64,000 bases of DNA from Gonapodya prolifera JEL478 (Eukaryota; Monoblepharomycota; Monoblepharidomycetes; Monoblepharidales; Gonapodyaceae), in the NCBI GenBank assembly GCA_001574975.1, contig KQ965751.1, positions 72,718 through 136,717 of the forward strand. The letters are read 5' to 3'. The position numbers and the translations under genes are program-made. Below, piece by piece: positions 13,352 through 44,770 of this stretch; the first letter of the stretch is position 1; every line of letters begins with the position of its first letter. The notes under the pieces are model-generated. The model was not told the DNA's origin, ran no database searches, and saw nothing but the letters and a program-made list of their open reading frames with translations.

Positions 13352-15252
13352 CTACGCGTCCTTGTCCGCTTTCGTGATCATCTTTTTCACCCGTTCGTAG
13401 ATCATGAACGTGATGGCCTGGCCGGGTGCTACGCGGAGAAGTCGGGGAGTGACGCCCTGAACGTTTGAACAGGTAAGAGACAAGAGATCGAAAGAACGAT
13501 CCGCGTTAATTCCACTCCGAAAGTCAAAGGCCAGGAGAACAGGCGGGTCCGCCCTCACCTTGTAAAACGCCTGCCACCCCTCGTTTTTCAAAATGTCGCG
13601 GACCAGCGTGGTCGTCCGCTGCCACGAGGACATGCGCTCGAGCTCCGACCCGGGCAGGATGCGTTGGCGCTGCACGCGGGTTTTGAGCGTGTCGATGGGG
13701 TTGTTGGCGAGGGGACCTGGCAGTTGGTTGGTGGTTTGTTTTGGGGGTTGAAGGGTTGGAGTGAGATGTGAAGGGTGATGCGGGGGGGTGAGGGGTGTTC
13801 GAGGAGTGGGAGTACAAGTTTGGGAGAGAGCAGAAACTCACCAAGAGCGCCCGAAAACCCTCCCGCAAGCAAGTGCTGCCAACTCGGGAGCGCGTCCAGG
13901 TCCTGTGTTTTCAGCAAAAAGTCCTTGATGTACTGGTACCCGGTGAAGTTGACGGCCTGGTTCGTTGCTGTAAGAGGACATCGCGGAAGGGGGTCAGTCT
14001 CCCGCTTCACACAGCTCGGTCGGCACTACCGCGCACAGGCCTCGAATTCGCTCCGCCCCGGGAAAGAGTCCTCCGACTGTGATTCGCGCTTTGGCCTCGA
14101 TATCTCTCCGCGAGGTATTCGTCTCGGTCGGGGCTATATTCGCGTCAAGGACTCGAATCGGGTTCGCTCCATGAAAAAGTCCCGGGCCGGCGCTCTCGCG
14201 ATTAAGCCTCGTTAACGCTTCCCAAGCTATTCCTCCAGGTCATCGCCTAGCTTTCTGCCACGACCTCTCCTACCTCCCCTCCCCCTCTCCAGCACCCAAT
14301 CCGACGCACCAACCTCCGCCTAGACCCACCTTGCCTCAACGCGGTAAACCCAACGCCCTTATACAGCGCGAACGGCCCTTCCTCCTTCACGATGGTATAC
14401 GCGGCCGTGAACAGGTTGCGGTACTTGGCGGCCTCAGAGGGGTCCGTCATGGACGCGCGCGCGGCTTGGACGCGGATCTGGGGTGGGCAGGTAGAGGGGT
14501 TAGCATGTGTCCACCTATCTTCCAGGACCAGATCTCGGGGCTCGCTCCGTGGGGGTATGTGTTCCGCTTCGCGAACCACTCGCTTTCGGCAGACAGCCTC
14601 TATCCGATATTTGCTCGCGATGATAGATTCCGCTCTGTCAGAGGAATGCGCCCCGGGTGGGACAGTCTCCTCGGTCGGTGCTACCGCGCATAGGCCTCGG
14701 GTTTTGGTCCGCGAAAGATCCGCCTCGCTCAGCGCTGTCGCGCTTAGGCCTCGGTTGCCCTCCCTCCGTTCGCCACGCTCACTCCACTCGCTTGAATCAA
14801 CTGACCTTGAGCACATCCATCGGCGTCACCACCAACACACTCTCCGTAACCCCGGCCGCCAACCCGGACACAAACGTCGCCCAGAACCCCGTCTTTCCCG
14901 TCACTGGGTCCCTCCCCAACAAATCCTTGTACGCCTCGAACGAAAAGAACCTGATGGCCATCTTGGGCACGATCCCGGACACGACGGCCGCCAGACCCCT
15001 GTAGAGACCGAGCGGACCGTCTTTTTGGACGATTCCGACGCCCGTTTGGATGAACCCGGGCGCCTTCACGGGGGCAGCTCCGGCAGCTCCGGCGGCCCCT
15101 CGAGACCGCGCGGGGACGTTGCGCCGCAGCTGCATGCGGACCTTGATCGTGTCCAAGGGGTGCATGCACATGGCCTCGCAGGCCCCTGCAGCGCCGCCGG
15201 CGATGAAGTGGACGCTGAGGGGGGTTTTTTGGTTGGTGGGGGATTTTGACAT
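13352..15252 (-). CDS. Mitochondrial succinate/fumarate carrier (SFC1/ACR1-like)
   Basis: Five exons join in phase: 15252-14806, 14477-14330, 13967-13842, 13716-13559 and 13456-13352, for 327 residues, the normal length for SLC25 carriers. Three repeats are present: HFIAGGAAGACEAMCMHPLD with TIKVRMQ; VSGLAAGVTESVLVVTPMDV with LKIRVQ; LLAGGFSGALGPLANNPIDT with LKTRVQ. Each has a Px[DE]xx[KR]-type motif. The opening sequence and LRQATNQAVNFTGYQYIK match the yeast SFC1 type, which exchanges cytosolic succinate for matrix fumarate across the inner membrane and supports growth on C2 compounds. Introns 1 (14478-14805, 328 nt) and 2 (13968-14329, 362 nt) are several times longer than other introns here because each contains a candidate introner-like element; introns 3 and 4 are ordinary. 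Confidence 0.92.
13985..14215 (-). mobile_element. Candidate introner-like element A (SFC1 intron 2)
   Basis: Read in the sense of transcription (minus strand), this insert consists of about four modules of 50-60 nt. Each begins with CGAGGCTTAATCGCG, CGATTCGAGTCCTTGACGCG, CGAGGCCAAAGCGCG or CGAGGCCTGTGCGCG, and modules end in TGGAGCGAACC, CGCGGAGAGATAT or CGGAGCGAATT. The last module carries GCCGACCGAG as in element B. The intron's branch-like CTGAC and acceptor lie just downstream. The element has no open frame or terminal inverted repeat that I can see. Confidence 0.65.
14535..14775 (-). mobile_element. Candidate introner-like element B (SFC1 intron 1)
   Basis: In sense orientation it starts with CCGAGGCCTAAGCGCGACAG, then GCGCTGAGCGAGG, then a second module starting CGAGGCCTATGCGCGGTAG with CACCGACCGAGG, and a third with GGCTGTCTGCCGAAAGCGAG, ending in CACGGAGCGAGCCC. 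It is followed by GCTAACCCCTCTACC and the CAG acceptor. The modules match those of elements A, C and D. The whole element lies inside a 328-nt intron whose flanking exons join perfectly (MDVLK to IRVQ). Confidence 0.65.
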
Positions 15253-16049
15253 TGGGAGGTGTGGAAGGGGTGTGGTGGGTGGGAACGGAGTGTGGTTGGG
15301 GAGTGTGGATGTAGAGGAGTGGGGTTTCAGTGGGGGTGGTGGTGTGTCTGTGCCGGGAGGGAGGGAAGGGATGGGTGAAGAACGGTGGAGAAGGTGAGCC
15401 GACGACGGGAGACGTAAGACACGAGGGAGCGGAAGGCGCAGCGACGGAAAGTGATGGAATAAAGTAAAGTCAAAGTCTCCCGCGCCGCTCGCTTCCGAAT
15501 GTCGGTTGCAGGTACGAGTCTGTGTCGGAACGTCACGTGCCCGACATGACACCCGCACAGACAGCGGCACACACGGCCAAACACAAGACACACCGCGCCA
15601 CACTCTCCGCCGGCAGCCGAATCCATCGTCTCTGCACCTCTCTCCCGTCTCCCGTGTCCGCGTGTCGTGTGTGTCGGGTCGTGATGAGTCACTCACGTCG
15701 CAGTCCTCACGTGACGTCCGATGGTCGATGTTCGCGCGGGTGCCGAGTCGTGGGATGGCGAACCGTCTGCTCCAACGCGGGGGGAGTCAATTGAACTTTC
15801 CGCAAAAGTGTGGGGCAAGACACTTTCCGGCTGAACGTCGGCAAGGCCACCCATTTTTGCCGTGACATCATATGATGAAGGTTCCGACGGAAGAAAAAGG
15901 CACGGTCGACAGGAGGGTGGCGTAGTTATACTCTTTTGCGTGCCACTATGATACGTTCTACTCAAATCGTCATTGTTTACAGTCTAACATATTTCGTCAC
16001 AGTGACATACCTAACCCCGACCATGACAGCACACCACCTCTTCAACCAA
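15253..16049. other. Intergenic region, SFC1 promoter side
   Basis: This stretch lies between the SFC1 start (minus strand) and the ALKBH1 stop. It should hold the SFC1 promoter and leader plus the 3' end of the ALKBH1-like transcript. No gene is supported. Minus-strand frames that extend upstream of the SFC1 Met are low-complexity and give no known carrier sequence, so the Met at 15252 is preferred as start. Confidence 0.5.
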
Positions 16050-17967
16050 TCAGCACACCTGCCGCACATTCACATTAATCCGTCTCCCCACCCCTCCATT
16101 CCGGACCTGCTCCGCCTCGTTCGTCATAAAGTCCGCAATCAAATCCCACTCCCCGTCTCTATCCGGTGCGTCCGCGGGGTCTCGAAAGAAGTACGAGGGG
16201 AGCGTCGATGGGAGGACGCGAGGAAGTCCTGTGAGTGTACGTGGACGTGGACGTGTAAGTGTGTGTCTTTAATGAGCGAGTGACCGCAGAGTGCAGGAGC
16301 AAGTTCCAGGAGTAAGGACTCACCGTGGAAGGACCGTCGTGTGGGACCGCTCAGCACGACGATATCACCCGAGCGAAGGAAGATGGCGATGGGCGGGCTA
16401 TCCTTTGTCGCGCCGCCTACGAGGAAGATTCCCGTGGATCCAAAACTAAAGTTTGGGTTCCGCAAAAGTCGACGATGAATTAATCGAACTCCCCCGAAAA
16501 GAGCTGTCCAGGAGAACACGAGACACCCACCTAATACTCACAAGCGGACTCTCTCCATCCGCCTCGCTCCGATCCTGATGCGCCATCAACGTATCCTTGA
16601 GCCCGTAATAATTCACAATCCCGCCCTGCGGCTCATACATCTCCGCGTCCTTCCCACCCATGACAATCTCCCGTATCCCGGGGAACCCAACCACCGCGCG
16701 CGATATATCGCTGATTTCGACAGGGACGGGCGGGGCGCCGTCCAGGATCCTCGCTCCACCGCCTGTACCGCCACCAGCACTGCCGCTGGTACTGAGCCCG
16801 ACGTACTCCTTCGTCGTCCAGTCATAGTACAACCCGATCGACGTCCATCGGATTCGGGAGTCCAGCAGCGCCGAGGGCGGGAGCGGGCGCAGGTAGTTGG
16901 CGGGTGTGGAGGGCGGGTTGGGGAGCAAGAGGTATGCTTCGACAACGCCGGGGCCGGAGGGGGTGTCGGAGGTGTCGTCGACGCTGACTGGGCCAGAGGA
17001 ATGTGCTTCGTCTGTACCTGCTTGTGGCTGGGAATCACTTCCCCCATCTCCACTCCCCGACCCCGACCCCCGACCCGCATCCTGCCCGCTGCCCGCAGGT
17101 TCCACTTTTCGCAAGGGTATCGTAAAGTCGGGCGGAAGTTCTCCTCGGGCTTCCTTCTCGCGCAGGTCCCACAGCCCGGCGCCCGGAAAGCAGACGGTGT
17201 GCGCGGTTTTGCGAATGTCCCAGTGGGTGTCTTTGCAAGTTGGGGCAGGTGAGAGGTGGGAGGTGAGACCAAAAAAAAAGAAGTCAGTCGCCGAGTTCTT
17301 GAGACCGCCCCTCGCCCATCCTCGCCCTCCCCCTCCCGAACCCACCCAAATTCGTCACATTCGGCGCCCTCGTATACTCCCTCACGCACTTCTTGACCAC
17401 CTCCCTTTCCCCTCTTGGGTGGAACGGGGACTGGATCAGCACCATGCCGGGAAATCCGGGGACTGTGAATGCGCGGGGTGGTGGGCCGGGAGAAGCCCCA
17501 GCGGAGGCATCGAGCCATCCAAAGTGAGGGGAGGAGAGACGGAGGTCGGGTGCGGGAGCGGGGTCCGACGACGGGTTCGAAGGTCCTTTAGGCAGGTCTT
17601 CCCGCCCCACACTCGCCGACCCAAGGACCACCTCTTCCAACATCCCCCTCCCCACCCACTCCTCCAGCCTCCGCATATCAATCACGCCCGACAAGTCGAC
17701 TGGCCGATCGCGTCTCTTGAAGTGCTTCTCTGCGACGCGGAACGGCGTGTACGAAGGTGCCGGGGGTGGAGGGTTGGGTTTGTGCCGGCGTGCAAGCCTG
17801 GACGTGGCGTTGATGTCGGGCGGGATGTCGGGGGCGGGTGGGGGCGGCATTGGGTGGGTGGCGAAGAGGGATGATTCACGATTTTTCTTGAGACTGTGGG
17901 CAGTGAGTGCCACGATTCTTGTGTGAAAGGCTCGCCCCCATTGACGTTTTGCCTTGTTTTCGGGCAT
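16050..17967 (-). CDS. ALKBH1-type 2-oxoglutarate/Fe(II) dioxygenase
   Basis: Four exons join with exact phases: 17967-17346, 17230-16531, 16445-16324 and 16228-16050, giving 540 residues. Key features in order are NLDTHWDIRKT, RWTSIGLYYDWTTKEYVG, GGIVNYYGLKDTLMAHQDRS with the HxD iron motif (HQD), SPLVSISFGSTGIFLVGG, LRSGDIVVLSGPTRRSFHG with the distal histidine, LPRVLPSTLPSYFF, and RRINVNVRQV, the 2-oxoglutarate-binding RxNxxxRQ-type end diagnostic of AlkB proteins. ALKBH1 proteins oxidatively demethylate tRNA and DNA bases (for example m1A, m5C oxidation in tRNA). The protein is longer than the usual ~390 residues because of Pro/Ser-rich inserts in exon 1 and a Gly/Ser/Asp-rich loop near 17000. 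Met 17967 is chosen because the frame is open; an internal Met at 17850 is a possible alternative. Confidence 0.93.
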
Positions 17968-18590
17968 CTGGACAGGACGCAGTGACGTCGTTTTGTTATG
18001 CGACGTTGGAATTTTTTTTTGTACAACCTCGGCAGACGAAATAGTCAGTTCAAAAGTAAGTTCTGTTACCCTGCGAGATTATAAGCAGAGCCAAAGGACT
18101 TGAAAATAGCATAGAGCGACTGATGGTGCGGTGGATTCGGTACATGGCCATCTAAATGAAGTGGAAGGGTGAAGGTGGGACATTCCCAGGCGTCAACCAC
18201 TGGGACATCCCACAGCAGACAAAGGGCGTTCCAACGACCTCCAACGGGGACGCAAAATGGCTGAGTATTGCTTTGGGTCTCGGCCCCCCTTGCGCTTGAC
18301 TCAGGCGACAATGCCAAGACCGAATAACCCCGACCGCCTGAAAACATGAGTTTCCGCTCCTGGTTTCCGACGTGAGGAGCACGTGGCTGGCTCGCAACGA
18401 TACAGTCTCACAGACCTTCGCTTTCTTGTAACACTACAGAATTCCCCGCAAACAATAAGGGTGTTGACCACCCTATTTCCCCACCCACCCTCAATCGGCC
18501 AAATAAAAGACCTACTTATCTTCTCTCCCTCGTGGTCGCATCGAAACCAATCGATTCCCCTCTTTCGAGCACAGCGGAAGACAACCAACC
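17968..18590. promoter_or_regulatory. Divergent intergenic region between ALKBH1-like and MFS genes
   Basis: The two genes are transcribed away from each other, so both promoters must lie in these ~620 bp. An A/T run at 18011-18019 is the only obvious simple sequence. No specific factor site can be assigned from the sequence alone. Confidence 0.5.
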
Positions 18591-21308
18591 ATGTACGTGT
18601 CCGTACCTCCCGCCCGTGTCTGCGTCTCGTTCGTTTCCGCGCGATACCTGATCACCCCACACATGTGGCGTCCACCGACAGGTCCGAGAACGCAGAGGAA
18701 AAGATGGCGCTTGACGTCGAAGGCGATGCCACATGGACACCCGGTAAGCTCCAATCGTACCATCGTTCGCCACTCGCGCCCCCCGCTGACAACGCCCTTT
18801 CCACCCGCGACCCGAATCAGAGGAGGAAAAGGCAGTTGTACGGAAGCTGGACCTGTTTATTGTGCCTTTTATCAGTCTTCTGTACCTGTGCAACTACCTG
18901 TGAGTTTTTCCATCCTTCCACTATGTGTCTCCCAGTTGCAGTTATGAACTGTTCTCATCCCCGCAGCGACCGTGGCAACCTCGCCAACGCCAAAGTCGCA
19001 AACTCCGAGTTAGTACCATCCCCCATCTCCCCTTTTCCCCCATTCTCACATTCCTTCCCCCCCGTGTCACCAGCAAAGCACACGCCGGGATGCTCGCCGA
19101 CCTCGGAATGACGCAGCTGGACTACAATTTCGTACTCGGGATCTTCTTTGTGGGCTACTCTATCGGAGAGATCCCTTCAAACTTCTTCCTCAAGTCGTGG
19201 GGTGCCAACCGGTGGTTTGCGCGTATTTGCATAAGTGAGTGATGTGCCTCGCTCGACGCTTCACAAGAATGCTGGGCTTGAACAATGTCTTCTTTTGTTA
19301 GCGTGGGGAATCTGCGCCGCCTGTATGGCCGCGATCCAAACCTACGGACAAGCTCTCGCCGTTCGCTTCCTGTTGGGAGTCGCTGAGGTAAATGTCACTG
19401 CGTTGCTTTCGTCCTTTTGAAACCAGCATCTAACGTCTTCTCTGCACCAGGCTGGATTCTTCCCCGTAAGTCTCAACCCCCACTAAATAACCCTCGCCCT
19501 CCTCGACTCTCACTCACCCAAACCTGCGCATCCCGTCCCACAGGGCGCTGGGTTCTACTTCGTTCTGTTTTACCGCCCATTCGAGCGCTCGCGCCGCCTC
19601 TCGTGGATGTTCACGACCTCCGCTCTGGCTGGTGCATTGTGAGTAGTCACACGGTGCTTACTTTGTACGTTACTTCAGTATCTTGACATGGCATTCTCAA
19701 CCAGCTCCGGCCTGTTCGCGACCGCAATCTCCAACCTTGACGGAACGGGCGGCCTCGCCGGGTGGCGGTGGATCTTCTTGCTTGAGGGGGTGAGTTGTGC
19801 ATCGTTCGGCCTACTCGCGTGGACGTGCCGTTGAAGTTCTGCTGTCAGATCCCGTCCATCATCGTGGGAATCATTACCATGTTCTACCTTCCTTCGTGTG
19901 AGTTCTTGAATCAGCGCTACGGTTCTTGCAATATTGGATCGTCTTATCTAACTTCTTCGCAACCCTGTCATTTTGGTAGACCCATCCAAATGCTGGTTCT
20001 TAACCGAACGCCAAAAGTACATCGCCGCTGAGCGGTTGCCCAAGGAAGACGTCAAGGAGAAGTCCAAGGCGTTTGTTCTGTCTGACTGGGTGAGTACCAT
20101 CTCATGTGCGGTCAAGATTGCTTGTAGGCTGGATATTGACACAACGTGACGAAACGTAGCTCGAAATGTTTAGAGACCCCAAAGTGTGGATGTTCATGAT
20201 CGTGTATTTGAGTGAGTCACGCGGCTTCTCCATATCCCCTTCCCTCCATCGCACAAGCGCTGACTGAAACCTTCCACACAGTCCACGTCAACGGCAACTA
20301 CGCCAACAGCGCCTACCTTCCCACCGTGATCTCGAACGTAAGTGTTTCCTCGGTTCCGCCCAGGTGTACTGTTTCAAACATCAATGCTCTTCGCTATCTA
20401 ATAACAGCTCGGATGGAAAGCAAACCAAGCTCAGCTCCTCACCGCACCAATTTACGTGAGTGTACTTGCTATCGCTGGTACACTTGCCACTCAATGACCA
20501 TCACTGATCACTTTATGATTCAAATTTCCACAGCTCACCCAATTCGTCTTCATCCCGATCATGGGATACCTCGCCGACAAGACCAAGAAGCCGTGGGCCG
20601 TCATAACTGGTGCAATTGTTGTCGCCGTCGTTGGCTTCTTGAGTGCGTTGTTGTTATTTCTGAGCATTTTTCACCCAGAGCGCGGCGACTGACATGCTTC
20701 TTCAGTCAATGCTATTTCGTTGAACAACGCTGTGCGATACTTCGGTCTCTTCTTGAACAATATCGGAATCGGCACCACGTTAGTATACTCGCACATTCCT
20801 TTGGAAACCTTTCCCTCCCGCTAATGGCGTGGTTCTCCACAGAGCACCCATCCTCCTCGCCTGGATCGGCCACTCTATGCTCGGTCGGGGCTCCACAATA
20901 ACTGCGGGCGCCATGTCGTTCATGTCCGGCGCTGGCCACTTGGGTGGAATTTCTGGTCCTCAAATGTTCCAAGCTGACGACTCCCGTGAGTTTCAATACC
21001 CCAGACGTTCTAGAAACGAGTCCGTGTCGGAGAAGCTGACCGTCCTTGCTTACCGACGTCTAGCCAAATACACCCGAGCTTGGTCCATCCTGGCCGCCTC
21101 CTATTGCTTGAACATCCTCACCGTTGTCGCGCTTGAGTGGATGCACAAGGGGAGGAACAATGCCCTTGCTGAAGATGTGAGTTATATCACTTCTTTTCTC
21201 GTCGTTACCCTGGTTGATGGTAACTGGTCGGACGGTGGTTTCCTGCAGGCGGAGTACGAAAAAACTCACACTGAACACTCTTCTGCTGCACCTCAGAACC
21301 AAGTCTAA
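18591..21308 (+). CDS. MFS transporter, anion:cation symporter family (Dal5/Tna1/allantoate-type)
   Basis: About ten or more short exons assemble into a 12-helix transporter. Landmarks are EEEKAVVRKLDLFIVPF, YLCNYLDRGNLANAKV (family signature DRGNlgnA), YNFVLGIFFVGYSIGEIPSN, RWFARICIAWGICAACMA, RFLLGVAEAGFFPGAGFYFV, FERSRRLSWMFTTSALAG, GWRWIFLLEGIPSIIVGI, WLEMFRDPKVWMFMIVYL, IHVNGNYANSAYLPTVISNL, APIYLTQFVFIPIMGYLAD and a hydrophilic tail ending AAPQNQV. The family imports organic anions such as nicotinate, allantoate or pantothenate with protons at the plasma membrane; the substrate here is unknown. The start codon appears to be split by the first intron (AT at 18591-18592 joined to G after ACAG near 18680, giving MSENAEEKMALD). 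The internal ATG of MALD near 18712 is an alternative. A decayed copy follows directly. Confidence 0.9.
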
Positions 21309-21689
21309 CGGAAAAATATCTCAAGTTCCTGTCTGATATCTGAGCTTTTTTGTATATCTTTATTCTTGAATCGAGTTTATATAGTTTGAGTGGAGCTTGC
21401 TTGACAAGGCCGGCGACACGGCCGCGACACTCTGCTCTAAACCGAAACCCACTCCGCCGTCAAGCGATCGCTGATGCGACAAGTCTCGACATGGTGTAAG
21501 CAACCCCATCGCCCAAACCTCCCGTTGTGCGAAAGCAAATGCTTTTTCCGAACCGCTTCTGCAGGACCACCGAGGACATCGATGTGGCTGTAGAGCTCGA
21601 CTACGCCCAGCCAGAAGAGCTCATATGGAGCAGAGGTACGTACGCCCTGTGTGATTCTATGGCATCCCTTTTGGGAGAGTTTCAACCGA

Positions 21690-23395
21690 TCACTTTTACT
21701 CGAGCAGAAGAAGAGCACACAGTCGTTCGCATACTGGACCTGTACCTCGTCCCCTGGCTCAGTTTGATTTACATGTGAGTGTCGGACTGTTTTCAGTGCA
21801 TCGTGGGTACGTGAGTGTCTCCCAACTTGACAAAAGCAACCGCGGGAATCTGGCAAATGCCCGGGTCGCAAACACCGAGTGAGCAAACACTATGTACGCT
21901 TCTTATGCGATACGAGCTTTGCTCACTGTGGTTGTCAGCATCGATAGCGGAATGCTCTCCGAGTGAGTCCCAAACGGTCTTGCTGTCTCCAGCTCCACCA
22001 AAACTATGTCACCACCCAACCAAGCCTTTCCATGTCCCAAACGGAATACAACTTTGTCCTCGGCGTATTCTTCGTAGGTTACAGCCTGGGCGAACTCCCC
22101 TCCAATTTCTTCCTCAAGGCCATGGGTGCGACAAATGGTTCTCGAGGATTTGTATTTGTGAGTGGCTGCCGAATTCGGTCATCTCGGGGGCACTAAATTC
22201 TTGCTCACGGGTCCAGCGTGGGGGATATGTGCGGCGTGCTTGGCGGCTGTGCGAACGTTTAGTCAGCTTTTGGCGGTTCGGTTTGCGCTAGGATAAGCAG
22301 AGGTACCTTGTTGAGCTCTATCTCAGCGCTCTTCATCTTGGCCTACCCGTCTTGCTCTCCTACAGGCGGGATTCTTCCCAGTGAGTATGCAAAACATGAC
22401 TGGAACGAGACAACCCCTCGACACTCTCCCCTCCAAATCAGGGCTCCGGATTCTACTTCGTCCTCTTCTAACGTCCATTCGAGCGCTCCCGTCGCCTATC
22501 GCGGATGTTTACGACGTCGGCCCTGGCTGGCGCATTGTGGGTCGCTCCATCTGCTGTCCTCGGGGTTTCCCTGACGCTGAGGCTCCGACGTCTCCCGAAC
22601 GAAAGCTCGGACCTTTTAGCGACAGGAATCAGCGAACTGGACATGGTTGGAGGGATTGATGGGTGGCGGTGGATATTTCTGTTGGAAGGGGTAAGCTTTA
22701 TTTGAACCTGAGTATTTACTTTCCCAATCAACTTTCTCACATCGCTTCCCACAGATTCCCGCCATTTTCGTCGGCTTGCTTACGCTACTCTACCTTCCGT
22801 CATGTGAGTCTCTTCCCACTGGGTCCTGCCCTTGACTTTACCCAGGAATCAACGCCCAAAAGACCCCTCCGACTGCTGGTTTCTCACACCGCGCCAAAAG
22901 CTCATCGCTGCGGCACGTTTACCGCGGAATGACGTGAAGCAAACGTCCAAGACCTTCGTGTTAAGTGATTATGTAAGTTTTGCGCTTCCGGCTAAATATC
23001 AGATCGGAACATGCGCGTGAAATTCTGGTTTGTAGATTGACCTCATGAAGGACCCGAAACTATGGATGTTTATGGTCGTTTACTTGAGTGAGTGTGGCTC
23101 TGATGAACCTTTCCTCCCGTCCGACCGACCAAATATTTACCCAAATATTCACACTTCGGAATATCGCATCCGGCACTCCCGTTCCAACGAATCTGCCAGT
23201 TCACGTCAACGGAAACTACGCAAACAGCTCGTACCTCCCCATTGTGATTAAGAATGTAAGTTCCGATCCGGATACGTGCGTACAAACACAATCCCCACCA
23301 ACCCGTGCACTCTGACAGCTTGGGTGGAAATCAAACCAGGCCCTGTTGCTTTCCTCGCCAATCTACGTAAATATGCTTTTCATCTGTTCCGTCAC
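21690..23395 (+). pseudogene. MFS transporter pseudogene (tandem copy, 3'-truncated)
   Basis: The order and exon structure of the preceding MFS gene are repeated: EEEHTVVRILDLYLVPWLSL, NRGNLANARVANT, YNFVLGVFFVGYSLGELPSN, AWGICAACLAAVRTFSQ, RFALG followed by TAA, then AGFFP, FYFVLF followed by TAA, RPFERSRRLSRMFTTSALAG, GWRWIFLLEG, IPAIFVGLLTLLYLPS, DCWFLTPRQKLIAAARLP, IDLMKDPKLWMFMVVYL, VHVNGNYANSSYLPIVI and LGWKSNQALLLSSPIY. At least two in-frame stop codons are visible, one acceptor region (near 22130) is garbled, and the last four or so helices are missing. It is therefore a dead tandem duplicate. Protein-level similarity to the active copy remains high, so the event is moderately recent. 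Confidence 0.88.
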
Positions 23396-25095: not shown

Positions 25096-25218
25096 CCATA
25101 CTTCAGCTTTTACACGAACCACAATCCAATTCCATGGGTGAGCTCGGACTTTTCTTATTCAGCGTCAACCACGTAGTTCTCACCCCGCCTCTCTCTCTTA
25201 CAATCCCAGATTCGTGAC

Positions 25219-25689: not shown

Positions 25690-25715
25690 CATTGTTGCCG
25701 TCCGCCGGCTCGTCA

Positions 25716-27740: not shown

Positions 27741-27905
27741 TTGCAGTGGGGAGCTTCCACACCAAATGAAAACAGCACTTTACTATGTCGCAAGTGTAGT
27801 ATTGTCGCAAATGATTATATGACTTTTCCTCGCCTGCTGTGGCCTAACTGGCGTGGCCATTTCGGCACACGCAACCGCCGACTTCTCGCTCCACCACACG
27901 CTGCA

Positions 27906-35026: not shown

Positions 35027-35202
35027 GCTAGGGCGGGCCCTATTTCAAAAAAACACGGGTGTTTGCGGGAGTACAGAAGTGTAGTATGTGAGCAGTTCTT
35101 ATGTATATAAATGAAATAGAAATTCGCGAAACAAATGCCTTGCCACATCAACAACAAAAAATGCAATACGATAAATATAATAAGCTCTCCACATATCTCG
35201 CC

Positions 35203-38162
35203 TCAAGCTTCGTCGTCGGATATCGAGGCACCCGCTGATTGTAACAATCTCTGAAGTTTTGGGATCGCATTGATTGTCTCAACGGGTATCATATAGAACA
35301 GGTTGACGAGTGCTTCCATATCCTTGCTCCGGGCTAATGAGGATTCCCGGACAGATGGGTTCAAAAGGCGCAATTACAAAGTGATCGGAATCGAGTACTT
35401 ACCGTCTACCATCCGCTGGAAATTGAGCGCATATAGTAAGAGGAAGGACACAAGAGTAACAACAAAGATTGAAACTGAAGCTGCTTGCGCTTTGGCGTTT
35501 CCATCCGGAAGAAAAGATTGGAGAACGAGAGTATCGATGAGATAGAGTCCTCCTTGTACATCCAAGCTTATCTCTTGCATGATCCTAAATAACGCATTGT
35601 AAGTGTTGAGAAGGAGAAGATGGAAGTAAGGTAGGTAACACTCACATCATCAAAGTTCATGGTGGCCTTGTGACCATTAATTGGAAGAAATTGCCTTCCA
35701 TTCTGGAGAAAATCGTTGATCTACTCAGGGGACACTTGTTTAGTCGTTTACGGAGTCATGCGAGTCAAATAAAACCAACAACTAACCATATTATCAAGCG
35801 GCGACACGGTTTCGTTGTAGGCGAATCCTAATCAGGTCGTTTACCGAGAGATGACTCTGTTATGAAATCCTACGTTTTTGAGTCGGTTACCATCAGCGTC
35901 TTACCGATGGTTGAATTAAAGTTTCTAACGGAAGGATCGCAACTTGCCACCATACAGCCGAGGTCTTCCGTCAGCCTATCAAGATATCATTAATTGTGAT
36001 TCGTGACAACAAGAATTTCCTGTAGCTCCATTCGTACCAATATATCAGATCGATTGTAGTTGTTGCTTGAATTGGCTTGACGCCGTACCCGAGCATGGCG
36101 TTGCGATGGATGGCTTCGTACTGTTCAAGCCTGATGTCCAAGGTCGAGCATGAGTTCTGACATAAATTGTTGAGAATTACTCGAGAAAGGCTCACGCGTC
36201 TTTTGAAAGTGCCTATGCCCTTCCCGGCATCATATCGTGTCATCTCCAAGAAGCACCTCGTAGGACAAAGCCTTCACTGTTTCTGTCCAATACTTGGAAT
36301 AGTATGGGAGGTGCACAGGTTAATAGTTTGTCAATTTGTGTCATAATTGACATATTACCTTTCTTTGATTGGTGAAGTTAACCCAAGCAGCCGAAACCTT
36401 CGATACACTCGCTTGCAGACGAGCTGACGAATGATCCGCGAGAGTGCGGCTCCGAAAAGTGCTCCAGGCAGCAGAAGCGCGCATAGAAGAATGAACGAAA
36501 TGAAGGTTTGGTCGTTGATGAGTGCAGCACCCAGTGATATTGCGGCCTGAACATTAGCAAAACCCCAGTTAGCCCCGGCATGAATCGAGTCCGACATGAA
36601 ACGCGGTCTCACGGAAAAGTCGCGGTCGCCCAAACACCCGCACGAATGTACTGCAACGTCTCGTTGTGCATGGGCTGCTTGTGCAGTATTCCTTGGTGAG
36701 GATCTTGCCGTATCAACGGCCGGTAGAAGAAGGGATTAGGTTCTGTGATTTGGAAATGGCCGCACTGAACTGATCCTTACGAGAAGGCACGTCACGAGGA
36801 TCACGAGTTTGACGACCACTGCATGTGCATTGGTCTAAAACTTCAACCCCGAACCAAAGATACACACATCTTAGACTTACCTTGGTCGACGAACTCCCAC
36901 ACGATCAAAATCACAAGCTTAAGCATCAGGTAAAGAAAATCGGTCCGCCCGTTCGACGTGGTCATGGGATTCTTTGAAGAGCGGGGATTTCCGTCCTTGA
37001 GCGAGGCAAAGCAAAATTAAAAAAGGGAACGGAGAGCTCGACCGAAGTGGCCGAACTAACCACGTAGGCGAGCGACATGAGGAGGGGGTGTAGGGCACAA
37101 ATAGAATCAAGCCCAGCACTGGTTTCACGTCAAGACAACTATTAAAACCAGCCTCATTCGACAGAGCGCAACATCTGAACTTGCGTGAAAGGATATAAGG
37201 AATCAAGTGTGCCGGGTTCTGGTAGCACTGAATTTCAGGGTACAGCGCAAGATGGCCGTCGTTGCAATCGAGAATGCCAATATCTATTTTTTTTGCGGTA
37301 CGCAGATCAACAAACAATAGTTTCTGCGAACTCCGCTCACCTTATGGCGCAAAACGTGATGGTTCCAATCAAAATCGCCACGAGCAACCACGCGGCCGAA
37401 AACATGACGATGAAGAGGGCGTAGTACCCCGGTGGAGGGCGGTACACGAGGGGGTTGAAAAGGTAAATTATCCAGTCTGGCATTCCGGAAAACCTTGGGA
37501 GGTGGGATCGGGAATCGGAAAGATGAATGGCGGCCGTGACTGGCGTTCCGACGTGTGATTCTGAAAGGTGAAAAGACTCACTTGAATCCAGGGTGCCATG
37601 CAAAGTAAAGAAGTTGGATATCTTCGAAGAGGAGGAAGGGGATGGCGAAACTTGAGTGCACTTCGTTGCCTGTAGTCAGGAACAGTGATTCCGGAAGTCT
37701 TAAAGTCTATTCACGGGAAAAGGATTCTCGTAAATACCTGTAACCATGCTGTGCAGCACGGAGAAGAATATCGTCTCGAGTCGCGATCGAGGTGGGTCGA
37801 TTTTCTGCACGCCGTTCGAGCTCAGAATGACAGCAATAGCCTCCCCAGCAGTCATAAGCAGCACTAACATCTTTCTCCTGCTTAGGTGGTTTTGCCCCCT
37901 TTTGATTCGTCGAGGGGCGACGCTCCGTGTCCGCTCCCTCTTGAGCTCGTCGGTTGCTCACTGCGCTCATATTCTGGAACCGGCGGAGCGCTGCGATCGC
38001 GGGATCGTCTCCTCCAAAGTAATTGGGCTCCGGAGATAAGCTCTGGCGTCGTCCTTCTGGGTACGCAGCGCCATTGATGGGTTCGGATGCCCAGCTGTCA
38101 CCCGAGAACTGCAGCCGACCAGAGTCCATCGTGGGTTGACGATCCCCCAGAGCGGAAGACAA
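35203..38162 (-). CDS. Multi-pass membrane protein, possibly TmcB-like, function unknown
   Basis: Many short minus-strand exons give a hydrophilic N-terminus (MDSGRLQFSGDSWASEPING) and then a series of membrane helices: LVLLMTAGEAIAVILSSNGV, NEVHSSFAIPFLLFEDIQLL, YYALFIVMFSAAWLLVAILI, a Cys-containing loop GHLALYPEIQCYQNPAHLI, FLYLMLKLVILIVWEFVDQ, VVVKLVILVTCLL, ISFILLCALLLPGALFGAAL, an external-like segment with NETVSPLDNM and LPINGHKATMNFD, and VSIFVVTLVSFLLLYALNF. The C-terminus is EALVNLFYMIPVETINAIPK ending ISDDEA. The last segment resembles the linker after the membrane part of TmcB/TmcC-like proteins of amoebae and chytrids, but this protein ends there and has no signalling domain. Exon boundaries in the middle (36.3-37.2 kb) are approximate. 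It shares a 210-bp divergent promoter with PEX11. Confidence 0.5.
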
Positions 38163-38372
38163 GAAAGCGATCCTCGATGTCTGCGGCGGCGAGCGATGGT
38201 ACTACCGATGTGGGAATCCAGATCGCGATCAGAGTTGAGTTGTGGGAATTTCTCCGTTTCAAAGTCACGTTATAAGTAAGCAAAGCAACTCAATTAATCT
38301 GAAACGCGTCAATAGAGACCTGCTATCAATTTCGTGGACAGATATCGTTAGAGACTTATATACATTTCGCGA
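38163..38372. promoter_or_regulatory. Putative bidirectional promoter, membrane protein / PEX11
   Basis: Only about 210 bp separate the putative start codons of two divergently transcribed genes, so regulatory sequence must be shared or overlapping. The stretch is A/T-richer than its flanks (for example GACTTATATACATTTCG near 38350, a possible TATA-like site for PEX11). If the PEX11 start is further downstream, the region is longer. Confidence 0.4.
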
Positions 38373-39854
38373 GTGTCTGATATGACCAGCGATGGAAAAA
38401 ACGCCTCCGCATTGAATAGAAAAGGTTTAGACTTTGGCGAAGAATATTCTGCGACACTTTCGTGGGAAAGAAAAGCTCAGACAACGGTCGGCTGGCTAAA
38501 TGCGATTCCGGTATTCTACCGGTGGGTTCCTCTGCACGTGGAGAAGCCAGCCTTGCTCACCAGTCAAGTGAGACGCGACGAATTTCTTCCTTCCCTTTCA
38601 CCAATCGACCCTTCTCACCGCGTCGTCTCGTATCTTGTCTCAGTGTCGGACCCCAACACCCAAATCGTCGGCACTGCCGAAATCGTGGGCCACGTGGTCC
38701 CGCCTCCGAGACGCCCCACTGCTCTTGTTCTCGCCTTGCTGCTGACAAAGAAGGTCCAATCGCGGACGGATGGGCGGGACGTCCTGCTGAAAGTATGTTC
38801 GCACCACGGTGCTCGGTCTGCTCACTGACGCACTGACAGAGCCGCTGACACGGTCTCGCGCGTGTCAAGGTGCCTCAATACCTCGCCGGGACGCTGCTGT
38901 ACCTGGCATCACAGCTCGGCGTTCCGAAACCGGAAAACCAAGGTCGTTTGAACAACTTGAAGAGCAACTTCAGCGTGGCTCGGCGCATAATTCGCCTTGG
39001 TCACGTGGTGCAACCACTATCAACGGTGGTGGATGTCGTGAGGGATCTGTTGAAGCACCGCGAGGAGGTGGTGAAGCTGGAACACCCCAAGTCAGGGGAG
39101 GATTTCGCCCGTTTATTCGCTCTGTTCCAAGTGGTGAGTTACACGCCGCAGTTTTATCGGTCATTTTCAGTACTGATTTGCCGGATTCCAAGTTTCTGGC
39201 GATAGCGAACGACGTGTGCGACGACCTCGGGACGTTGTCGTCAATCGGTGTGCTACCTTCAAAGTACGCCGTGGCGGACTACTACGGGGTCCGTCTTTGG
39301 GCCACTGGGAATTTGATTGACCAATTTGAGGTGGGCTTGCGCTCAGGGCTGGTTTAACATCGCGAACTCAAGTTTTCCCCGGATATTTTAGACCTACGAG
39401 GCCACTGTACGACTTCAGACCCGGATCCAAATCCTGAAAGAAAAGGGGGAGACCAAGAAAGCGCGCGACCTGAGCGGCCAGCTGTTTATGACGCGCGCTC
39501 TCCAGGTTCAACTTTTTGCAGTGGGTCTCTTATATCGGTTTCACGTTTATTACTAATTCTTTCAATCTCACCACACTCTTCACCGTTTTTCCAACATTTA
39601 ACTCAGGACGCGGTCTGGCTGGCCACCGACATAAACCCAGAACTCGTTGGGAAAGTTCTCACAACGTTTTTCCCCGAAATCAAGCCACGGGACCACATTG
39701 GCGGTGTCGCGGCTGTCGCGGGACTCGTGTCTGGTCTTATCGGTGAGCTTTGCTGCTCCTATGGAGAGTTTTTCCCAATATTTTCAGTATCACTCACAAT
39801 GATCTCGTCGGGCCAGGACTGCATCGGACCTACACGCGGGCTTTGGAGGCTTGA
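38373..39854 (+). CDS. Peroxisomal membrane protein PEX11-like
   Basis: Exons downstream of 38740 read TDGRDVLLK joined to VPQYLAGTLLYLASQLG across a GTATGT...TCAAG intron (38792-38867), then NNLKSNFSVARRIIRLGHVV, FARLFALFQ, FLAIANDVCDDLGTLSSIGV, YYGVRLWATGNLIDQFE, TYEATVRLQTRIQILKEKGE, DAVWLATDINPELVGKVLTT and HIGGVAAVAGLVSGLI. This is the PEX11 pattern (TDGRDKxxr..qY, then fslaRKxxRlGk, with a C-terminal amphipathic and membrane helix). PEX11 proteins tubulate and divide peroxisomes. The in-frame sequence from the Met at 38373 to 38740 does not look like PEX11, so the true start may be later or in a different exon. The C-terminus is proposed as LIGLHRTYTRALEA via an acceptor at about 39816. 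Confidence 0.8.
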
Positions 39855-40006
39855 ATTGGAAAAAGTCCTCGTCCTAGACAAAATGGTCTCACTATTTCCC
39901 ACGGGCAACTTTTCTTCTATGTAAAAATCTATGACACACTATTTCACAACACAAGGCATGCCTTTGCGGACAACGAGGGACCGTGCGTCCCCCACTCCGC
40001 GGGATC

Positions 40007-41130
40007 TCAGAAGTTGCCCAAGCCGGTTACCGCTCTCAGGCGCTCGTACGTGACCCAAAACACCAATTGCTGCGATCGAGCGAACAAATTTCAGCCAAAT
40101 TTGCCATCAGTTTTTGATAATTGATGAGCCTGAACCTACCCATGGCCCCAATCTTGCCCAAGTTGGAAAGAGGCCCTTGTATAGCACGCGAAAGCCCTCC
40201 GAGCGAACAGACTTGACGAAGTAGTCTACGGTGCCACTGTAATTGGGGTTGTGTGGGTCTTGGTTCATTACCCTGGCGCCATAGTTCCTTTCACACCACA
40301 TGAACAAAACTTAGCAAACGCGCCAACACACCGCGTCTTGATCACATCCGCCGGTGTCGAAACAAGACTCGCAAATATCCCCGAGCAAATAATCGCGGCC
40401 ACGTGGGTCCAGATGTCATCCCCCGGTCGCTTTCCCGTCCAGGGATCAGGCGGAACATGTGAAGTTCGTCGTACGTGCCGAAGGATGTACGACTTTGCCG
40501 TGTCGTATGTGGCGAGCTCGCCCAAGTTGACCTGACCTCACGATAATCAGAACCTCACGTCACGTTGGGGAAAGGTAAAGCGGCCAACACGCACCAAAGC
40601 CGCTCGCTGCACCGCCGGGCTGGACCGTCGCCACAGTCCACGCACGCCACCTTCCTCCCTCGCGATCGCCAACGCGTGCCACAGGCCACGGTACCGGGGC
40701 CTGCTCGGGTTCGCACCACCTGCCGTTCCCCTTGCGGCGCTGGCTTGCATCCGCACATTTACGAGATCGGCGGGAACGGCGACGAACTGGCCCATGGCTC
40801 CCGAAATAAGGCCGCTCAGAATCCTGAAGTGTATCGGAAGCGCGTCTGGGGACCCGCCTCCTGCGAAACGCTGCCGGAGGGTTTCGTAGACAAGAATCCT
40901 TGTCCCCGTGTACCTTTACATGCCGACATTAATCAGACGCCCGCCAGACCATTGAGACTTGAAGATGTACCTCTCGGACTCACACTCACGGAATGTGACG
41001 TGCCACAGCCGGTGTGGACCCCCTGTACAGACCCGCGACACCTTCGTGGTGGACGACGGATGCGGCGAGTGGGAGCGCCCGGGGTGTCCGGCCTTTGGCT
41101 GTTTCGAATTGCATGCGGGTTTTTGTATGG
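40007..41130 (-). CDS. Mitochondrial carrier, UCP4/dicarboxylate-carrier type, first exon missing
   Basis: Minus-strand exons read HTKTRMQFETAKGRTPRAL, VVHHEGVAGLYRGSTPAVAR, TRILVYETLRQRFAGG, LSGLISGAMGQFVAVPADLV, HALAIAREEGGVRGLWRR, GELATYDTAKSYILRHV, AAIICSGIFASLVSTPADVI, KTRVMNQDPHNPNYSGTV, LYKGLFPTWARLGPWQLVFW and YERLRAVTGLGNF with TGA at 40007-40009. The PADLVNVRMQ and PADVIKTRVM signatures and the GPWQLVFWVTYE end match uncoupling-protein/UCP4-like carriers of the inner mitochondrial membrane. Repeats 2 and 3 are complete. Repeat 1 begins only at the residues after the Px[DE] motif (exon start about 41130), and no exon encoding the first helix or a start codon is found before the neighbouring gene's stop at 41384. 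The gene is either 5'-truncated or has an undetected small first exon. Confidence 0.75.
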
Positions 41131-41383
41131 CTCGGTCTGGCCGATGAACGGATTTTATGAGGTTCATCGAGAATCGAGCCGATATGAGGTCCACGATGTC
41201 CAGGCTGGAGACGAATGGCGAGGTTGTGGATGGGAGATGTGGAAAATGAACAGTTGCCATCGATTTACAACACACTTCAAGACACAGAACCCCCCCAAAC
41301 ACGACTTCCACGACCGATAAATACATGCACACACTCTACCATCCAACTCGCCACCACCACGCCACAATTTCGTCCCTAAGGCC

Positions 41384-43908
41384 CTACCGCCCACCCCCAC
41401 CGTCCTCCTTGCGGGTGATTTCCTGCGAGGTCTTGAACGAAATGACGTTGTTGGCGGCTGTGACGATATCGTCTTCGCCGAGCTGAAAAAGCCGATGTGG
41501 GATGTTGGTGTGAACATCAGTGGGCATTGCCCAGACGAGGCTTCCTCTCGGCGCACTCACCCTGACCCCACCAACCCCCTCAGCCCACAAATAACACCGA
41601 TCAATCTCCGGATGCACCTTCCTCGCAAACTCCCTGACCGTCGTGCCCGGTCTCAACAGCAAACAATCGCGAAACACACCGCCGCCGTGCCCCCCGCCGG
41701 AGAAGTTGTGGATGTTCTTGACGGGGTACGCGGGGACGAGGTGCAGGAGCTTAATGGCGGTGGTGAGCACGGAGAGTACGCCGGTGGTGCCGTAGCGGAA
41801 GAGGACGAGGTCTGGGGCGAGTGGGGTGGAGGGTGGTGTGAGATGTCAGGGAGCAGCAGAGGGTTGGGACGAAAGGCGTACCTTGAACCTTCTCCAACCG
41901 ACTACAAAAACCATCGTAAGAGCGTCGTAAGCGCACGACCACCAACACGCATTCCTCTGCATCCTGCTCCTCACCTCCGCGTCTTTTCATCCATCGTCTT
42001 CAACTTCTGTCCGCCCTCCACAGCGCCGCTCTCGTCATCCTCGGCCGTATCAAACCGATCCGTCCCCTCATGGTACCGTATGAATCCCTGCTTCGCGAGA
42101 CGCCGGAGGAATGTTTCGGCGAGGGCTGATGTGAGGACTGTGCGAGACTGGGGTGGGGGGAGCGGGCGGAGTTCCAAGTTCAGATCGAGAGGTGTGGCAT
42201 GGGTCGGCATCGAGGGTTGCAAGGGGATGGCAATGCAAGGGAAGGTAAATACACACCTCGTCGTATTTCCGACATATCTTGTCAATGTTCTTTGCCGCGT
42301 CGGGGAGGTCGATCTTGTTGAGTGCCTATCACCAACACCATTGTAACTCAAGTCATCAGCACCATTCCACCGAATCCCACAACCCCCCGAAACAGAAAAC
42401 AAGAACTACGCACAATAACAGTCGGGAACTTCTCCTCCACGAACATCTTTACAAAAGTCCTCAGCACCTCGTCGTCCCAACTCTCCAACGCCGCGATTAC
42501 GTCTTTCGTGTACGGCGTGGGGTGGTCGGGGGAGGTCAACACCTGCCGAAGCTTGTCGAGAACGGACAGGACCAGGGGTAGGCGTACACCGTACCCGGAC
42601 AGTTGCTGTTGGAGTGTGAAGGCGGGGTCGGCGTCTGGAGGGGGGCGTGGACGTGAGATATGAGTTGGCGTTGGCACAATTTGGCATTTGGCAGTTGGCA
42701 GTTGGCAATTTAGTGGTGGTATAAGGCGGGAATATGAGAGACGCACGCACGTACGTACGGCAACGTGGCGGCGCATGGTGCTGGACCATTTTGTTTTCAG
42801 GTTGTTGTAGATCCACCTAAGCATGCGTGGCGCAGAGGAAACGAAAACCGATGAGGTGGTTATAATGCATTGTGTGGTTCGAGCCGAGTTGACAGGATGT
42901 CCAAGTCGCCTCCGAGAGTACTATTCCGCTTCGCGTCGAGCGGACTCTGTACGTTCCGCGAGTCAATCTGCATCCTCGAACTCGCTGTCGCGTTTTGGCC
43001 TCGTTGTACGCTCCGCGATTAATATCACGATCCGTGGGGTAATTCGCCTCCGGTGGACTCCTTCGGTTCTTACTATCGCGCCTAGGCCTCGGGTTCGCTC
43101 CACGAGTATATATTTCGCTTCGCCGGGCATTCGCCTCCGGCGGACTCCTCAGTCAGCGCCTACCGGCACTTAGGCCGGGTTTCCTCGCGACCCTCGGACG
43201 GCTCGACTCCAGGCACTCGGCTTCGCCTCGTTCGTTCCGTATCGCCCCCCACGCCCCCCAAACTCACGCTTCAATCTCCCCCGTAAGCCACTCGACATCA
43301 TTGATAGGGTCGTACCCCACCGTCTCCTTCCCGTGCGAGTCTGTCGTGCCAGACACGTCGACCACGTGGATGAGCGCGTCGGCTGTGCGGAGGTCGTCGA
43401 GAAATTGGTTTCCGAGGCCCTATGAGGTGAGCGTGCTGTTATTCTCTGCTACATGGGGACTGTTTGCCCTGACTGGGCGCACCTTTCCTTCCGATGCCCC
43501 TGGCACGAGCCCGGCAACGTCCAGCATCTCGATCGGGACCCATCGCGTACCGTCAACGCACCGCCCTAGTCAAGCCCTTAGCGTATGTGCACAACGAGAA
43601 GTCCGCCAAAGTCGACCGCCTCACCGTATCGTGGCTTACATAGCTTCTCCTTACCGAATCTCTTGCATGCGCAGTCTATGGGCACGTACGCCACGCCGCG
43701 GTTGGGTTTTATGGTCGTGAAGGGGTAGTTTCCGACTTTTGCGGATGCGTCTGATACTGGGGACGTTGGGTTTGGGAATCGACAAAGTGGTGGTGTGAGA
43801 ACATTTGTACGGCAAGGGGGACGAACAAGACGCACCTGCGTTGAGAAAAGAGGACTTCCCCGCCGACGGCTTCCCCACGCAGGCAATCAGGACGTCCGAT
43901 GCTGCCAT
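41384..43908 (-). CDS. YchF/Obg-family GTPase, Ygr210c subfamily
   Basis: Exon 1 ([20 protein letters not shown]) carries the P-loop GKPSAGKSS. The next exons give [20 protein letters not shown] (G2 region), the cysteine-bearing insertion [17 protein letters not shown] and [20 protein letters not shown] (G3 DVAG), [20 protein letters not shown], and [12 protein letters not shown]. After the 451-nt intron come [42 protein letters not shown] (G4 NKxD) and a C-terminal TGS domain ([20 protein letters not shown], then [17 protein letters not shown]), ending RKEDGGGGR. The P-loop, DVAG and NKxD order and the CxCxRFG-type insert identify the Ygr210c branch, cytosolic GTPases/ATPases whose role is poorly known, probably ribosome-associated. 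The intron at 42817-43267 contains an introner-like element. The start lies only 99 bp from the divergent aldo-keto reductase. Confidence 0.9.
42895..43250 (-). mobile_element. Candidate introner-like element C (YchF GTPase intron)
   Basis: In sense orientation the 451-nt intron starts GTGAGT, G-rich, then CGGAACGAACGAGGCG (16 bases identical to element D). It then runs through modules beginning CGGCCTAAGTGCCGG, CGAGGCCTAGGCGCG and CGAGGCCAAAACGCG. Internal pieces include GGCGCTGACTGAGG, GAGTCCGCCGGAGGCGAATG and GAGTCCACCGGAGGCGAATT, and module ends include GTGGAGCGAACC and CGCGGAGCGTACAA. This is the longest of the four copies, with three to four modules. The flanking exons join in frame (GEIEA to WIYNN). 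Confidence 0.65.
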
Positions 43909-44007
43909 TCTCTGTTTCTCGCGTTGTGGAATGTGAAGTCACTCGCCGTCTTTGGTCACATGCACGTCCACTAATGCGATCGCAGCACGAGAATTCACAA
44001 GACAACG
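43909..44007. promoter_or_regulatory. Compact head-to-head promoter, YchF GTPase / aldo-keto reductase
   Basis: The ATG codons of the two divergent genes are only 99 bp apart, so the 5' leaders and core promoters must overlap. No TATA-like element is obvious. Confidence 0.5.
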
Positions 44008-44504
44008 ATGAGCGAGTGGCCGACGTTCACGCTCAGCTCGAGAGCGAAGATTCCTGCAGTGGGACTGGGAACGTGTAAGTCGGTTAATGCGATTCACTGG
44101 AGTTGTGGATTCGATCACTCTCCACCCGCCATCAGACTTTGGCGACGACATGAAACTCCCACAGGACCAAATCAACAATCTTGTCGAGACCGCTGTCAGA
44201 GCGGGGTACCGCCACTTCGATGGGGCTCTCGTCTGTACGTGTCTGTCGCCATCGCTACCAGCCGCCCGATTCTCTATTTCACGACCACTTTTCCAGACGG
44301 CAACGGATCCCAAATCGGAATTGCACTCGCCCGTGTCTTTGATATGGGCCTCGTCAAGCGAGAGGACATATTCTACACGTGCAAGTGTCCAGAAACAATG
44401 CTCACGGCACCAAACGTCAGGAAAGCACTCGAGCAGACGCTTGAAAGTTTGCAGCTGGACTATTTAGACTTGTACCTTTTGCACTGGCCTGTTTGTGTGA
44501 GTGC

Positions 44505-44770
44505 CGTTGGTTGGGGGTTGGCGAGACGGAACGAACGAGGCGCGAGCGACGGAGGAGCGAGTAGCGGAGTGAATTAAAGTCGAGCCTCGCGAGCGCACCG
44601 AGGACACCGAGGCCTAAGCGCATAAGGCGCTGACCGAGGCTGTCGAGCAAAGCGAGATCCGTGCGCGATGCGCGAATGATCCATCACGGAGCGAGTATTG
44701 GACCGAGGCTGTCCGCCGGAGGCGAAACATCCGCGGAGTGGAAGAATCCGGACGGAGCGAATTACAAACC
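44505..44770 (+). mobile_element. Candidate introner-like element D (aldo-keto reductase intron)
   Basis: The 318-nt intron 44497-44814 starts GTGAGT, a G/T-rich stretch, then CGGAACGAACGAGGCG (identical to element C). Modules follow with CCGAGGCCTAAGCGCATAAG, GGCGCTGACCGAGG, CACGGAGCGAG, CCGAGGCTG, TCCGCCGGAGGCGAA and GACGGAGCGAATTAC. A possible branch ACTTAAC, a pyrimidine tract and CACCAG close the intron. The host gene is on the plus strand, and the element is likewise on the plus strand, whereas elements A-C and their hosts are on the minus strand. Confidence 0.65.

Follow-up and report, generated by a model that had tools for sequence, protein, structure and literature searches.

A modular, hairpin-built repeat family found mainly in sense-strand introns of Gonapodya prolifera

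We analysed a stretch of 64,000 nucleotides (nt) from Gonapodya prolifera JEL478 (GenBank assembly GCA_001574975.1, contig KQ965751.1, positions 72,718 to 136,717 of the forward strand), here called the window, which contains four related inserts, elements A to D, inside introns. An earlier note on the window had described these inserts, quoted pieces that they share in sense orientation, and assigned them to three unrelated host genes. Copies of the family sampled from elsewhere in the genome covered only these four spots when compared with the window by blast, at about the places originally given, and the shared pieces were confirmed on reading the sequence (Table 1). Elements A and B occupy two introns of SFC1, whose protein matches Pfam Mito_carr in three stretches; element C lies in a YchF-family GTPase, which we place as a YGR210-like member of the Obg/YchF group because it matches Pfam MMR_HSR1 and YGR210-like_G4; and element D lies in a gene that, judged from a reading of its protein sequence, encodes an aldo-keto reductase (AKR). 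All four introns have GT...AG borders in the direction of their gene, and all four elements follow the direction of transcription, as had been claimed. The reported host intron lengths of 318–451 nt were reproduced, and the range of 45–120 nt proposed for typical introns was about right, with a median of 85 nt and quartiles of 70–115 nt in 393 predicted introns without modules.

The element map of the window was built by blast of the sampled-locus copies at E 1e-3, requiring at least three overlapping matches, and under these settings no fifth place was covered. Element A is the most decayed of the four. The GTPase intron was read by hand, because the gene model contains a spurious mini-exon (43164–43168).

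Table 1. Elements in the window and the introns that hold them (window coordinates).
Feature	Position	Strand	Basis and remarks
Element A	14015..14215	-	14015-14129 under up to 10 genome-copy matches; end 14215 from the earlier note and sequence reading
SFC1 intron with element A	13968..14329 (362 nt)	-	Spliced gene model; GT...AG
Element B	14562..14785	-	Up to 45 genome-copy matches overlap
SFC1 intron with element B	14478..14805 (328 nt)	-	Gene model; GT...AG
Element C, head type a adjoining donor	42983..43252	-	Up to 97 genome-copy matches overlap
YchF-family (YGR210-like) GTPase intron with element C	42817..43267 (451 nt)	-	Splice sites read by hand; kept in homeolog
Element D, head type a	44509..44762	+	Up to 86 genome-copy matches overlap; query of the genome search
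AKR intron with element D	44497..44814 (318 nt)	+	Gene model; GT...AG

We identified related copies throughout the genome (47.56 Mb, 207 contigs). Element D gave at least 64 matches, with the best 40 of 213 candidates scored, and an 18-base module, TCCGCCGGAGGCGAATGA, was found 642 times with up to two mismatches (352 forward, 290 reverse), against 1 match for a control; the number of whole elements is probably a few hundred. Copies were inspected one by one in three overlapping sets: 62 clusters of exact module matches, the top 30 blast matches and the four elements of the window. The clusters derive from 68 exact matches to TCCGCCGGAGGCGAATGA, and form a sample that is independent of location. 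Genes were modelled with our own gene finder, which includes an intron-length model and was trained on the fetched loci (L numbers) with no element annotation given. By these models, 45 clusters lie in introns in sense orientation, one in an intron in antisense (L017), one in an exon in antisense (L078) and 15 outside gene models, compared with 18.5% intron, 37.9% exon and 43.7% outside models for control positions in the same 62 loci (n = 3720). The intronic share of 46 out of 62 has a p value of about 2e-21, and the excess of sense over antisense copies (45 to 1) one of about 1e-12. Thus, the co-orientation with transcription described for the window holds across the genome. The earlier note had also called the elements confined to introns, and had suggested scoring location and orientation genome-wide; most copies are indeed in sense introns, but "confined" is too strong, because 15 of the 62 fall outside gene models, and a further one is exonic and antisense.

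Among the 30 best blast matches, we found 22 in sense introns, two in antisense (L009 and L017), three with partial sense overlaps and three without a gene, one of the latter being element D itself, which is intronic. Across all loci 495 introns were predicted, and 78 of these contain at least two sense motifs, compared with two that contain at least two antisense motifs only. For one of these two (L007, 1360–2054) the gene was modelled first on the plus strand, making the copy sense, and on the minus strand after retraining. In the antisense copy of L009 (1381–1640), the reversed head G-run forms a C-rich tract ending in CAG, near the modelled acceptor.

The 15 copies outside gene models are of several kinds. 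L035, L041, L061 and L067 lie a short distance upstream of a model on the same strand, as does L080, whose model is weak, and L056 and L083 lie directly 3' of one; by these models, some of them may represent introns of badly modelled genes. L031, L040 and L053 have nearby models on the opposite strand only, L037, L051 and L032 have weak or mixed models only, and L076 and L082 have none. Donors are weakly enriched near the outside copies, with a score of at least 4 in 6/15 compared with 18% of controls, and a score of 7 in 0/15. Such copies would be expected of an ordinary dispersed, non-autonomous transposon resembling miniature inverted-repeat transposable elements, landing anywhere and surviving only where it is spliced out. 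Selection alone could then yield the strand bias, as the elements carry 2.0 acceptor-like sites per kb in sense and 7.2 in antisense, and 0.24 and 0.71 donor-like sites per kb respectively, so that antisense copies should disturb splicing. This excess could be a cause of the strand bias, but not of the small share outside genes, which at 15/62 is below the 43.7% of control positions, and seven of these 15 adjoin a same-strand model. We also saw by eye no target-site duplication of at least 3 nt in the one clean filled and empty pair, L071/L094; the check for such duplications that the earlier note had recommended was made at three sites only (L071/L094, L069 and L055), with the same outcome at each. 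No terminal inverted repeats were noticed in alignments or listings, although no formal end-to-end search was made and the 3' end is undefined. We therefore regard an indiscriminate transposon as quite improbable.

The predicted introns that hold elements look real, in so far as reading frames and protein domains continue intact across their junctions. A Pfam scan covered 8 of the 45 predicted host proteins, chosen as recognisable, and in seven of these the splice junction is internal to the Pfam match (FMN_dh, Sacchrp_dh_NADP, AMP-binding, ABC_membrane, Transp_cyt_pur, Aminotran_5 and Trypsin). In the eighth, an annexin, the best listed stretch stops short of the junction.

Copies lie mainly in introns, oriented with the gene, and usually start a few to some tens of nt past the 5' splice site. 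Each has a head, of which there are several kinds, and behind it a series of small hairpin modules that varies from copy to copy. Element introns have a median length of 367 nt (range 131–658 nt; 78 introns including duplicates), compared with 85 nt for plain introns (n = 393). In the 76 distinct element introns used for the following counts, the first recognised piece stands a median of 18.5 nt after the donor, and at most 30 nt after it in 49. The last recognised piece stands a median of 115 nt before the acceptor, a remainder that is overestimated because decayed modules go unrecognised, leaving the size of the 5' bias uncertain. We defined six head patterns, one of which stands first in 55/76 introns. 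The head is usually followed by a CCGAGGCCTAAGCGC...GCGCTGACCGAGG hairpin, and then by modules of the TCCGCCGGAGGCGAATGA, GCGCGAAGCGC and GCGCGGAGCGC types, the number of which is variable and differs even between homologs (350 nt against 227 nt for the L025 and L095 introns). At the acceptors we saw no conserved 3' end, and the element is flanked on both sides by host sequence. Likewise, an element that is near-identical from end to end of the intron was not found, the heads being variable and the acceptor end not common to the copies, and the ends derived from blast are too loose to place the insertion point. The donor, the exon context and the phase are near those of ordinary introns (phase 34/27/15 in element introns, 151/159/89 in ordinary ones), with GTGAGT somewhat commoner (35/76 against 122/392), while a G-run follows the donor in 8/12 type-a copies and in 36/392 ordinary introns.

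We compared element introns with their homologs within the genome. All sense introns but those of L046, L002 and L005 were covered (42 of 45); exon pieces beside them served as queries and gave DNA homologs for 17 loci. We compared 18 homolog stretches, plus one for the AKR gene; another pair of matches, to L048 and L063, was weak and stands outside the comparison. Homeologs and older paralogs are mixed in this set, as the flanks are 72–98% identical. In ten loci the element is common to the homolog (L050, L054, L049, L052, L064, L025, L084, L072, L070 and L006); by this sharing, seen also for all four window introns, several elements are old. In five loci the homolog has a plain, module-free intron at the same place, of 59 nt (L063/L100), 72 nt (L048/L091), 100 nt (L057/L089), 128 nt (L071/L094) and 180 nt (L079/L098). 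L075 is a sixth such case, with gaps of about 50–65 nt in several paralogs, and for L057 three paralogs break at the same place, both as read from coordinates rather than sequence. The two remaining loci have intronless homologs (L069) and a mixed pattern (L042), respectively. L042 was considered as an intron gain and dropped, since by reading its paralog L090 appears to have the intron and L107 does not. L066 has paralogs both with and without a break. At L065 two paralog matches end at the junction, which is suggestive of an old intron, and this locus was left out of the counts. L045 was set aside, its sole intronless paralog being too distant at 38% identity.

Two loci point in the other direction. 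L069 is a trypsin-like gene with a 245-nt intron, of which by reading about three quarters is element, preceded by about 27 nt of donor and G-run and followed by about 33 nt. Its six nearest paralogs (84, 74, 59, 55, 42 and 40% identity) read through the site, where the protein query splits in L069 itself; the nearest (84%) has one stop elsewhere in the match, and two further paralogs (on C140 and C31) are unbroken at the intron site and broken elsewhere. These comparisons support L069 as the best case of intron gain. At L055 one tandem paralog, with 76% DNA identity, reads through, although the 3' half of the L055 intron, about 90 nt, looks normal, making loss in the paralog as likely as gain; the case for gain here is weak. 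Both loci would fit a true introner family, in which each exonic insertion makes an intron and the plain introns of the homologs are old, decayed introners, as would the G-run of the type-a copies, which looks as if donor and G-run travel with the head, and the reported fast degeneration of fungal introner-like elements (PMC4457414, in the parts available). That explanation is countered by the plain introns of 59–180 nt at the same position in 5/17 loci, the paralog gaps and breaks at L075 and L057, the phase distribution and the missing 3' end conservation, and we think it unlikely. The term introner-like, used in the earlier note, is apt for the intron location, the sense strand and the gain at L069, and less so for intron creation, which was mostly not found. 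By these sequence comparisons, intron creation as the defining step has support at one locus and weak support at a second, and was not seen at six, and it is for this reason that we describe the family as an intron-invading, hairpin-built element and an occasional intron maker. The family thus for the most part enters introns that are already present and now and then creates one, and the interpretation given in the earlier note holds in part.

The modules are short hairpins. Perfect hairpins with a 4-bp stem and a 3-nt loop occur 353 times in element introns, compared with 130–151 times in shuffles; those with a 5-bp stem and a 4-nt loop are mildly enriched (51 against 28–45), and those with a 4-bp stem and a 4-nt loop are not (105 against 123–143). 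In 61 trimmed elements, 179 of the 273 triloop hairpins with 4-bp stems have the form C-GNA-G, compared with a total of 18 over five shuffled sets, and 26 of the 37 tetraloop hairpins with 5-bp stems have GNNA loops, against 15 in five shuffled sets. The stems covary around the loop: at 503 C-GRA-G anchors, complementarity at the three pairs that follow is found in 351, 324 and 287 cases (203, 176 and 146 expected), and the effect stops at the fourth pair (125 against 148 expected). We identified 13 different GNA stems that are each found in at least 2 of 68 loci.

RNA favours GNRA and UNCG loops. Among the 37 tetraloop hairpins of the elements we found UNCG in none and GNRA in six, and as the other 20 of the 26 GNNA loops are GNYA, these are not RNA GNRA loops. 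The modules instead follow the rule of ultra-stable DNA mini-hairpins, a GNA or GNNA loop closed by C-G. In the available parts of PMC4686876, such loops with at least two G-C pairs are described as giving a unique mini-hairpin DNA, with a melting temperature of 78 C for GCGAAGC. On the opposite strand of the elements the same hairpins have TNC loops. Given the sense orientation bias, the DNA-stable form therefore stands on the non-template strand, and it is on these grounds that we propose spread by way of single-stranded DNA.

An intronic RNA element of the host, for instance a structured RNA with a role in splicing or regulation that is copied for its usefulness, would fit the sense strand, the covarying stems and a start close to the donor (median 18.5 nt, 49/76 within 30 nt). 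However, for the window and five loci Rfam gave 0 matches at the gathering score, the overall RNA folding hardly exceeds that of shuffles, the introns range from 131 to 658 nt with module numbers that differ between homologs, and 20/26 GNNA tetraloops are of the non-GNRA kind. We consider this explanation highly improbable.

We favour, with a probability of roughly 0.6, a non-coding modular family that mostly invades introns, spreads by means of hairpins and single-stranded DNA, and occasionally makes an intron. Under this model, the C-GNA-G and C-GNNA-G mini-hairpins would form in single-stranded non-template DNA, in R-loops left by transcription, for instance, or in the course of replication, and copies and modules would spread through the single-stranded DNA by slippage or template switching. 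Splicing, at sites that are probably in most cases those of the host intron, would then take the insert out of the transcript, while exonic and antisense copies would be cleared by selection, the antisense strand carrying more splice-like sites. An insert outside an intron that brings or meets usable splice signals might become a new intron.

Several observations weigh against this interpretation. Fifteen of the 62 clusters lie outside gene models and two are antisense, and the gene models themselves are predicted from DNA alone and cannot call introns of more than 700 nt. The intron length left when the element is subtracted has a median of 137 nt, against 85 nt for ordinary introns, and for this reason the element ends are poorly defined. 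Three paralogs of L069 that are about 42–47% identical (on C1, C12 and one on C28) break at residues 67–87, near, though not clearly at, query residue 80–81, and could reflect an old intron nearby. As regards the hairpins, the copies are related, so that their counts are not independent, and the sampling module contains one hairpin. Whole-element folding is not special, with a median z of -0.41 for RNA and -0.23 for DNA (30 of the 61 elements, first 300 nt), compared with 0.01 and 0.33 for 30 ordinary introns, and the energy models do not discriminate between the six triloops that were tried, giving each an equal value. Finally, neither movement nor single-stranded DNA nor an enzyme was directly in evidence, and the spread through single-stranded DNA is unproven.

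A bolder form of the proposal is that the family is a new kind of selfish element copied as an array of DNA-stable GNA and GNNA mini-hairpins on the non-template strand of introns under transcription, which would need no protein of its own, pass from intron to intron via single-stranded DNA that arises in transcription or replication, be kept near the 5' splice site, and occasionally give a new intron. We put this forward tentatively, and think it doubtful as a complete account; if true, a single physical mechanism would underlie both the growth and the gain of introns. As the loops obey a DNA rule, a mechanism through single-stranded DNA is directly testable. The origin and growth of introns is an open question, for which introners are a main documented source. 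In the present genome the family occurs in an invading mode and, at one or two loci, in a creating one, and the genome offers a built-in comparison, in that many genes are present in two diverged versions, the second with or without the element.

We compared the family with known systems, as described in those parts of the cited papers that were available. The introner-like elements of Dothideomycetes (PMC4457414; van der Burgt 2012 as cited there) are likewise fungal, are present as hundreds of related copies in unrelated genes, and are longer than regular introns; being spliced introns they are sense by definition, the same strand as here. They differ in being described as near-identical introns and new gains, whereas the copies studied here are modular and diverged, with splice sites that seem mostly to be those of the host, and the larger part of the informative cases lies in introns that exist without the element. 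Introners more broadly (PMC9860276) are reported with copy numbers from 5 to more than 2,000 and median lengths of 30–654 nt; some families co-opt host splice sites, and some lack target-site duplications and terminal inverted repeats. Among the eight introner-bearing groups of the main set in that paper, pezizomycotina fungi are the sole non-aquatic one. The family described here shares with these introners a non-autonomous, repeated nature, an intron location and the sense strand: related copies stand in introns of unrelated genes (642 module matches, 46/62 intronic, hosts with varied Pfam domains), 45 of them in sense and one in antisense. In contrast, introners are described there as creating introns, and this family mainly occupies existing ones. 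Its hairpin-module composition had no counterpart among the introner descriptions met in PMC9860276, and in one open-licence library we found no hairpin-built introners. Sequence-similar stwintrons of Hypoxylaceae are also repeated fungal introns, but in these, from what the source text gives, an internal intron interrupts one of the splice elements of the intron around it, whereas the donors here look whole, by reading alone. The closest likeness for the modules is with extraordinarily stable DNA mini-hairpins of the d(GCGAAGC) type (PMC4686876, PMC6479982), which have the same C-GNA-G and C-GNNA-G loops, CGCGAAGCG occurring in both; there, in the available text, they are a motif of physical chemistry and an aptamer tool, and here part of a genomic element.

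All four window elements are shared with homeologs, A and B in L105, C in L046 and D in L104. By reading, sequence related to element A is retained in the same SFC1 intron of L105; the L105 intron corresponding to that of element B holds an element with one module four times in tandem; and L104 has an element intron between the same exon flanks as element D. Window regions 13300–15300 and 41300–46200 were compared with C27 (L046, L104 and L105): SFC1 lies about 30 kb from the GTPase-AKR pair on both C21 and C27, and the order is the same on the two. A second, diverged copy exists for many but not all genes, the pattern of a hybrid or duplicated genome. About 95 nt of element C beside the donor (43140–43260) are identical in L046, compared with about 84% identity over most of the exon sequence, and N follows in L046, which may be due to gene conversion, constraint or assembly mixing. 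The AKR gene has an in-frame stop at 44887–44889, where L104 reads on, and by reading a possible later frame break; the window copy of this gene looks decayed.

That an assembly artefact has pasted one repeat into many genes is extremely improbable. N does occur inside several element introns (e.g. L005, L046, L058, L064, L073 and L104), and in L005 (1380–1720) one N joins an RFC-like exon to an exon, donor and element of the gene of L004, a probable misjoin through the repeat. Against an artefact stand dozens of different flanks, reading frames that are intact across the junctions, and elements shared in diverged homologs.

One 20-base module had no exact match in viral contigs. The fungal domain PF04082 gave 72 matches in the genome and none in 14 control genomes, as expected of a fungus. 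5.8S ribosomal RNA was not found in the genome (best 39 of 1607 candidates scored), and the ribosomal DNA may be missing, collapsed or overlooked in the assembly. Elsewhere in the window, at 3800–10150, we identified three tandem cytochrome P450-like copies, with repeat pieces 61–85% alike and a Pfam p450 match in two open reading frames.

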